Source: a virus. Taken from it: a DNA stretch of 26,736 nt. The stretch covers positions 1-26,736 of IMG/VR virus record IMGVR_UViG_3300024351_000072. One strand, 5' to 3'. Below the pieces are notes generated by a model. That model was not told where the DNA came from and made no database searches. It worked only from the letters and a program-made list of their open reading frames with translations. Made by a program: the position numbers and the translations under genes. Positions within the stretch are counted from its first letter, which is position 1, and each line of letters starts with the position of its first letter. Positions 1 through 5,083 of the stretch are shown in pieces.

Positions 1-374
1 GAATTCCAAAGTAATGGTAATCTATTTTTTTCTTTATTTAATCTATAAGATTTTTTGTGTTCATTGAACCTATATCCAATCTTTTTTCTGCGAGATAGAC
101 CAACATAAACTTCACCGATTGGATTTGTGATAGTATAAAGTTTATTTATATCATTTGAACCCTGATAATCAGCCATATATTCTGCCCAACGGTCTTTGTT
201 ATTGTAAAACCAATCTAATGCGTATTCAGGTTTTGTTTCTCTGAAGATTTTATTATCTACTTTATTACATTCCTTACAACGATTTTGTTTACCGTCTTTA
301 TGTTTTGAACATTTAGAATATTGTGATAAATCTTTCATTTTACCACATCTGTTACAAGTCTTTAATAGTGCCAT
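1..374 (-). CDS. Zinc-finger GIY-YIG endonuclease, 3' end off window
   Basis: I translated this partial gene directly from the start codon at 372-374; it runs off the left edge with 124 residues visible. The N-terminus carries C7-x2-C10 and C33-x2-C36, with C22 and H25 between them, as in the small zinc ribbons of phage homing endonucleases. A GIY-YIG core follows: LYTITN at 79-84, EVYVG at 88-92 and YRFNEH at 101-106, which lines up with the KRWKRH arginine of I-TevI-type nucleases. The catalytic glutamate should lie beyond the edge. Such enzymes cut one DNA strand or both and spread themselves between phage genomes. The gene lies 81 bases beyond a strong terminator, so it is outside the neighbouring operon; I see no clear promoter of its own. 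Confidence 0.75.
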   Translation of the reverse strand, partial: MALLKTCNRCGKMKDLSQYSKCSKHKDGKQNRCKECNKVDNKIFRETKPEYALDWFYNNKDRWAEYMADYQGSNDINKLYTITNPIGEVYVGLSRRKKIGYRFNEHKKSYRLNKEKNRLPLLWN

Positions 375-445
375 TATATTTTTATTTATTTCTGTATTAT
401 TATAAATATAAGAAAATAATATTTCTTTTCCAAATAATTTAGGAC

Positions 446-475
446 AAAATAAAAACCCCAACAGAAAGTTGGGGT
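446..475 (-). terminator. Intrinsic terminator after small RNA / left operon
   Basis: On the minus strand ACCCCAAC (468-475 side) and GTTGGGGT (455-462 side) form an 8-bp perfect stem with loop TTTCT, followed at once by TTTTATTTT. GC-rich stem plus U-tract is a classic Rho-independent terminator. It would stop both the candidate small RNA upstream and readthrough from the left operon, before the GIY-YIG gene. Confidence 0.88.
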
Positions 476-562
476 CCAATGTCTCAGCGTATTATTTAAT
501 TCCGCTGAATATATAAAGTGTGTCAGAATGTCAAATGGCACGAAGACTAAACTGACTCTTAT
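446..562 (-). ncRNA. Candidate small phage RNA, about 115 nt
   Basis: The 3' boundary is the terminator at 446-475 and the 5' boundary is set by a promoter at 568-599. No ORF of useful length lies between. The transcript can form three hairpins. The first pairs GTCAG with CTGAC near the 5' end, with a GTC/GAC inner stem. The second is TCAGCG/CGCTGA (plus-strand arms 484-489 and 503-508) around a 13-nt loop. The third is the terminator. Own promoter, stem-loops and terminator together are the layout of a small RNA gene. The alternative is an untranslated 3' tail of the operon with a chance promoter match. Family and target are unknown. Confidence 0.45.
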
Positions 563-567
563 TATAA

Positions 568-599
568 CAAAGATATAAAAAAATTTCTATCATACCAAA
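568..599 (-). promoter_or_regulatory. Bacteroidota-type promoter for small RNA
   Basis: On the minus strand the -33 box TTTG (596-599) is followed after exactly 20 bases by TATCTTTG (568-575), matching the Bacteroidota primary-sigma consensus TTTG-N19-21-TAnnTTTG. Transcription should begin near 562. The -33 box overlaps the last codons of the DUF1376-type gene. The boxes and spacing are the same as in the promoter at 5052-5083. Confidence 0.65.
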
Positions 600-1075
600 T
601 TATCTAATTCATTTATTTCTTTTTGAGATGGTTTTTTCATCATTTCTTCAAAAGGTATTTTTCTAGAAGCTATATTAGTATTATTATTTTTATTTACATT
701 TTTATTATCAATTACATTTACATCTTCATTTTCAATTTCATTTTCATTTTCCATTAGTTTATCATATGTTTTTGATAACTTATTTTTATCTTTTAATCTA
801 TTATTTCTTCTACTTTCAGTATATTTTTTTCTTTTTTCAGCTTCTTCTTTTAATCTGATATTATACCAACATCCATCAGTATCTTTGATAAATTTCTCTG
901 CTATTTCAATATCTTCTTCAGTTAAGATTGATTTCATATCCTTATCAGTTAGTTTACCTTTCTGATGTTGTAAACATAAAAGAGTAATGTATTTACCCCT
1001 CTGTTCATAATTCATTGTAATAGTTCCTACTAAAAAATCTTGTGTGTAGAATAACACTGCTGGGTCTTTTGCCAT
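590..1075 (-). CDS. DUF1376/YdaU-like replication protein
   Basis: A 161-aa protein whose first 90 residues resemble the DUF1376 (YdaU) domain found at the N-terminus of phage replisome-organiser proteins: KDPAVLFYTQDFLVGT at 3-18, then NYEQRGKYITLLCLQHQKGKL. These winged-helix domains are thought to bind origin DNA or replication partners. The middle (about 80-105) is basic, and the stretch at about 108-133 is low-complexity Asn/Glu/Lys, probably a disordered linker. The C-terminus has PSQKEINEL, reminiscent of the short C-terminal segments of primosomal proteins. It is shorter than typical full-length members, which carry a second domain. It has its own upstream gap with a promoter-like box. 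The assignment is by motif recognition only. Confidence 0.6.
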   Translation of the reverse strand: MAKDPAVLFYTQDFLVGTITMNYEQRGKYITLLCLQHQKGKLTDKDMKSILTEEDIEIAEKFIKDTDGCWYNIRLKEEAEKRKKYTESRRNNRLKDKNKLSKTYDKLMENENEIENEDVNVIDNKNVNKNNNTNIASRKIPFEEMMKKPSQKEINELDNLV

Positions 1076-5051: not shown

Positions 5052-5083
5052 CAAAGATACACCAATATTGCGAATTTACCAAA
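5052..5083 (-). promoter_or_regulatory. Bacteroidota-type promoter for the 81-aa gene
   Basis: On the minus strand TTTG (5080-5083) and TATCTTTG (5052-5059) are separated by exactly 20 bases, an exact match to the Bacteroidota consensus TTTG-N19-21-TAnnTTTG. Transcription should start near 5046, giving a leader of about 75 bases that includes a short AGTGG/CCACT hairpin. The first seven bases, TTTGGTA, and the -7 box are identical to the promoter at 568-599. Confidence 0.75.

Follow-up and report, generated by a model that had tools for sequence, protein, structure and literature searches.

How a short stretch at the end of a phage operon is to be read, as intergenic filler, as the leader of the gene that follows or as a gene for an RNA of its own, is the question raised by positions 446-599 of the window, a viral contig 26.7 kb long in which genes for portal and tail proteins are found. 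Judged by its portal protein, this contig has its nearest annotated relatives among Nonlabens phages, at 33% identity. Most regulatory RNAs known from phages belong to enterobacterial prophages, and a review of the field (PMC12197685) makes no mention of Bacteroidota phages. Comparison of related loci makes it very nearly certain that a free-standing RNA gene exists in this Bacteroidota phage lineage. The RNA belongs to a previously undescribed family, phage small RNAs as such being already known, and this family from an uncultured lineage is well supported.

Promoter, terminator and fold of the RNA

The small RNA occupies about 115 nt of the minus strand (449..562), with its 5′ end placed from the promoter. 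This promoter, TTTG-N20-TATCTTTG at 568..599 (minus strand), is of the Bacteroidota primary sigma type, for which the consensus is TTTG/TANNTTTG (PMC6847099), and the same spacing is seen in 12 of 15 homologues. TTTG-N19/21-TANNTTTG occurs twice on the window's minus strand (599 and 5083) against 0.34 expected, and both sites are plausible. The site at 5083, a second TTTG-N20-TATCTTTG promoter, lies with hairpins in a gap of about 450 nt (5430-4970, minus strand) that is probably the start of the left operon.

The intrinsic terminator, GGACCCCAAC-UUUCU-GUUGGGGUUU at 453..477 (minus strand), has 10 pairs and a T tract running to about 449, and was recognised by scan, by folding and by stem changes in homologues; the scan gave two terminator-like sites in 3 kb against 0.3 in shuffles. 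Upstream of it lie hairpin 1 (522..556, minus strand; stem GUCAG/CUGAC with an inner GUC/GAC) and hairpin 2 (484..508, minus strand; stem UCAGCG/CGCUGA, loop ending AAAUAAUA), both drawn from the fold and the homologue alignment. The fold of 117 nt has a free energy of -32.7 kcal/mol against -19.4 ± 3.3 for shuffled sequences (z -4.0). The sole open reading frame across the RNA is a 51-codon GTG frame that reads through the terminator, and no reading frame is kept across homologues. The original prediction of a non-coding stretch of about 115 bases, bracketed by a Bacteroidota promoter and an intrinsic terminator and folding into three hairpins, is borne out on each of these points, the combination being that expected of a phage small RNA.

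Homologues and conservation of structure

No match to the window was obtained with Rfam 15 at the gathering cut-off, and permissive Rfam scans of the window and of two related contigs (L098 and L094) gave sub-threshold matches only, the best at 32.2 bits against a cut-off of 60. A blastn search of the RNA against annotated phages found no relative, returning short chance matches or none, and the first pattern run on viral contigs (hairpin 2 plus terminator) returned the window's own phage only. Related contigs were instead collected via the sigma-like protein encoded 1.9 kb downstream of the RNA. This protein (L091:6001-6558) is weakly sigma-like (phrog_1740, E 1.5e-4) and its position 1.9 kb after the RNA is conserved.

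In the related uncultured phages the RNA was found at the same place, at identities down to about 70% by blastn. A covariance model built from 13 sequences (R1) recovered about 16 distinct members with scores of 64-120 bits, the lowest-scoring one cut by a contig end, with the RNA present in every related contig covering the place and in a few further phages. Such a covariance search had been put forward as a check on the original prediction, and its outcome supports an RNA. The model did not recover the RNA in the more distant portal relatives; weak R1 matches upstream of their portal gene were rejected as an ordinary terminator. In the window an ordinary strong terminator lies between a structural gene and the gene preceding the portal (21136-21103, minus strand). 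A pattern search of bacterial genome contigs gave at least 120 stretches, and those from Bacteroidota and a few others that were scored with R1 all fell below 20 bits.

Compensatory changes in the stems had been named as support for an RNA, and decay of the stems with retention of a reading frame as its refutation; the opposite of the latter is observed. Among 14 distinct sequences the alignment was fitted to the structure tested, so that the following counts lean towards that structure: pairing cells amounted to 95.1% against 81.9 ± 1.6 when shuffled, cells changed on both sides numbered 34 against 11.2 ± 3.0, and the covariation score was 0.457 against 0.194 ± 0.024 when shuffled and at most 0.121 when slid. 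This conserved secondary structure is again that expected of a phage small RNA. Hairpin 1 retains one loop on stems that are rebuilt (GUCAG/CUGAC, AUGUUCAG/CUGAACAU, AGUAAUCAG/CUGGUUACU and AGUCGGU/GCCGACU), its core GCCAUU(U), which in the window is GCCAUUU at 533..539 (minus strand), being nearly invariant. Likewise, the loop of hairpin 2, AAUA(A/U)UAC, is nearly invariant within changing stems. AT-rich DNA holds many promoter-like sites, so that a promoter and a terminator might flank meaningless sequence by chance; the comparison of loci, through the covariation of the stems and the conservation of the RNA at one place, refutes this explanation and leaves it scarcely credible.

The RNA as a separate unit

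The order on the minus strand is a primosomal-like gene (1075-590), the RNA promoter, the RNA, its terminator, a second promoter and an endonuclease gene. The first of these genes (590..1075, minus strand) is weakly similar to phage primosomal proteins. The RNA had been described as sitting between the left operon and a mobile endonuclease; as a small correction, the RNA promoter begins within the last codons of the upstream gene, so that the two are not truly separated. The endonuclease gene, of a zinc-finger plus GIY-YIG type, starts within the window and is cut by its end (3..374, minus strand); a complete copy of 171 aa is found at L091:4349-4864. Its separate promoter, TTTG-N20-TATATTTA at 403..434 (minus strand), has a counterpart at 14 of 15 homologous loci. 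The same phage also encodes a homologue of ribosomal protein S21 just beyond the window (L091:5045-5263; PF01165, E 5e-8).

Both the upstream gene and the kind of downstream endonuclease vary among members, the nucleases being of HNH_3/NUMOD4 or zinc-finger GIY-YIG types. An endonuclease gene follows the RNA in each of the 15 loci examined; the enzymes belong to several unrelated kinds, and 13 of the genes start with AUGGC. The place may possibly be a hot spot for mobile endonucleases.

The constant position between operon end and endonuclease gene, together with the lack of a clear promoter before the RNA in the more distant phages described below, would suit a cis element, whether a leader, attenuator or anti-termination site of the endonuclease or no more than a structured 3′ end belonging to the operon before it. 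Of the 15 members, 12 retain the RNA promoter and three lack a full one, and as the endonuclease has its own promoter at 14 of 15 loci the RNA is not its leader; with the intervening terminator, a transcript shared with the downstream gene is not predicted at these loci. Since the neighbouring genes change while the RNA stays and both promoters are mostly kept, a separate RNA gene is indicated and a cis element is distinctly improbable.

HEARO/omega RNAs are structured RNAs adjoining IscB-type nucleases. The RNA described here resembles them in being a structured RNA beside an HNH-type endonuclease gene, and differs in preceding unrelated endonuclease kinds, each with its own promoter, and in having no Rfam match; neither the RNA family match nor the single nuclease family of an IscB guide RNA was found. 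A phi29-like packaging RNA was considered and set aside, a TerS-like gene and TerL being present and the RNA lying apart from both.

Candidate pairing with mRNAs

The GCCAUUU loop complements AAAUGGC, a sequence that often surrounds the start codon in these phages, and because AUGGC starts are common, matches to GCCAU are partly expected. When the hairpin 1 loop was tested on 14 phages, against 488 gene start regions grouped into 40 gene families, the zinc-ribbon gene was the best of the 40 with a mean pairing z of -2.55 across the 14 phages (cluster mean -0.27, sd 0.86). The linker and the hairpin 2 loop singled out no family among the start regions, and the linker as an anti-Shine-Dalgarno mimic was rejected, there being no signal against start regions.

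The strongest pairing is found in one subclade, where the loop can form a duplex spanning 18 positions with the mRNA of a small protein encoded about 0.7 kb downstream. In L093, L094, L100, L103 and L099 the loop pairs along almost its whole length with the end of a 60-aa gene, at the codons just before the zinc-ribbon start, and once the RNA gene itself is set aside this is the best site on either strand of the sequence searched. The pairing energies run from -17.6 to -22.7 kcal/mol against averages of -15.2 to -17.6 (sd 1.6-1.8) for shuffled loops, so that -22.7 clearly exceeds the shuffled values and -17.6 does so modestly, and as the subclade has nearly one loop sequence these are few independent observations. 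In L111 the site in the 60-aa gene is altered and a differing loop makes 13 perfect pairs over the start codon, a match that six other places in that phage equal or better. Exact complements of at least 10 nt across the sequence searched are mostly AT-rich chance matches, L111 excepted.

Elsewhere the extended pairing is weak or absent. The window phage and the group of L098, L106, L108 and L253 reach only about 8-12 kcal/mol at the zinc-ribbon start through short pairing, L097 has no pairing there, and no target common to all members was found among the phages compared. In the window phage it is the neighbouring endonuclease whose start region pairs best (-15.6 kcal/mol, z -3.4).

A loop conserved beyond any phage target in common, carried by an independent gene in an early-region setting, might point to an sRNA that acts in trans mainly on the host, on its mRNAs or on one of its sRNAs. 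Against this, a phage mRNA encoded close by gives the strongest pairing in one subclade; host targets are considered unlikely. Alternatively, the two conserved loops might bind a host or phage RNA-binding or ribosomal protein that the RNA would titrate or recruit. In keeping with this, both loops are near invariant on variable stems, the hairpin 2 loop is equally conserved yet is not explained by pairing and has no pairing partner, the variable UCUUU-GCCAUUU spacing in the distant set fits poorly with one long duplex, and the window phage encodes the S21 homologue. Against it, there is no known protein partner and the hairpin 1 loop core exactly complements a common start context; protein binding is rated as fairly unlikely, though less so than host targets.

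Proposed mode of action

The best reading of the RNA, put forward tentatively from sequence comparison, is a trans-acting antisense sRNA. The host's primary RNA polymerase holoenzyme would transcribe it in the early region, with its own terminator ending the transcript. Hairpin 1 would expose the GCCAUU(U) loop, complementary to the AAAUGGC start context of many phage genes, for pairing in trans with the start region of phage mRNAs or the coding sequence just before it. Such pairing would probably prevent, or less likely assist, the entry of ribosomes in hosts that dispense with Shine-Dalgarno pairing. In Flavobacterium johnsoniae mRNAs lack Shine-Dalgarno sequences and structure near the start tunes initiation (PMC6847099), so that repression would be the expected effect of a loop that covers the start codon. 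Among the candidate targets the strongest is the mRNA encoding the 60-aa and zinc-ribbon proteins, about 0.7-1 kb downstream; others are the endonuclease gene next to the RNA and further genes that begin with AUGGC. A 7-nt loop kept while its stems turn over is a precise and testable element, and the RNA bears on the question of how sRNAs locate start sites in hosts without Shine-Dalgarno signals.

Short phage RNAs that pair with phage mRNA, as proposed here, include P22 sar and lambda OOP (PMC12197685); these lie on the opposite strand of, or beside, their target, whereas the window RNA would pair by a short loop with an mRNA encoded elsewhere. IsrK of the Salmonella prophage Gifsy-1 is likewise a phage-encoded small RNA, acting on a bicistronic phage mRNA via coupled translation (PMC12197685). 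IsrK is also an mRNA, whereas the window RNA is marked by a terminator of its own and by a conserved anti-start loop, and no sequence relation between the two is claimed. Within the same phylum, trans-encoded small regulatory RNAs of Bacteroides thetaiotaomicron have been mapped from their own start sites (PMC10994844); those are chromosomal, no similarity to the window RNA was found, and the portion of that account drawn on here describes no phage member.

Diverged RNAs in more distant phages

A wider set of 80 loci carrying the conserved 60-aa gene, including further phages, was also compared. In the distant phages a different RNA, consisting of a hairpin and a terminator, occupies the place before the endonuclease gene. 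Its outer stems (UAGGAUAA/UUAUCCUA and UAAGGUAAAC/GUUUACCUUA) are unrelated to those of the window set, its hairpin loop is UCUUU...GCCAUUU with variable spacing between the two motifs, and its terminator loop is often UCAUUU. The two sets have little in common except the GCCAUUU loop. A model built from the hairpin of the distant RNAs (R2) matched more loci of the distant type and did not recover the window's set, so that the case for common descent is limited to the place and the loop motif; one ancestor for both sets is plausible on these grounds.

Together with the diverged RNAs that occupy its place in other phages, the terminator loops of which also carry CAUUU, the window RNA might belong to a class of general anti-start-codon RNAs, whose exposed loops, complementary to AAAUG(G/A), would switch off a whole class of mRNAs where initiation lacks Shine-Dalgarno pairing; this broader reading is judged highly improbable. 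Yet another structured RNA is seen at the same place in two contigs (L604:2640-2770 and L616:2634-2780), with a GUGGGAAC/GUUCCCAC hairpin and a terminator, that of L616 being preceded by a full TTTG-N-TATATTTG promoter.
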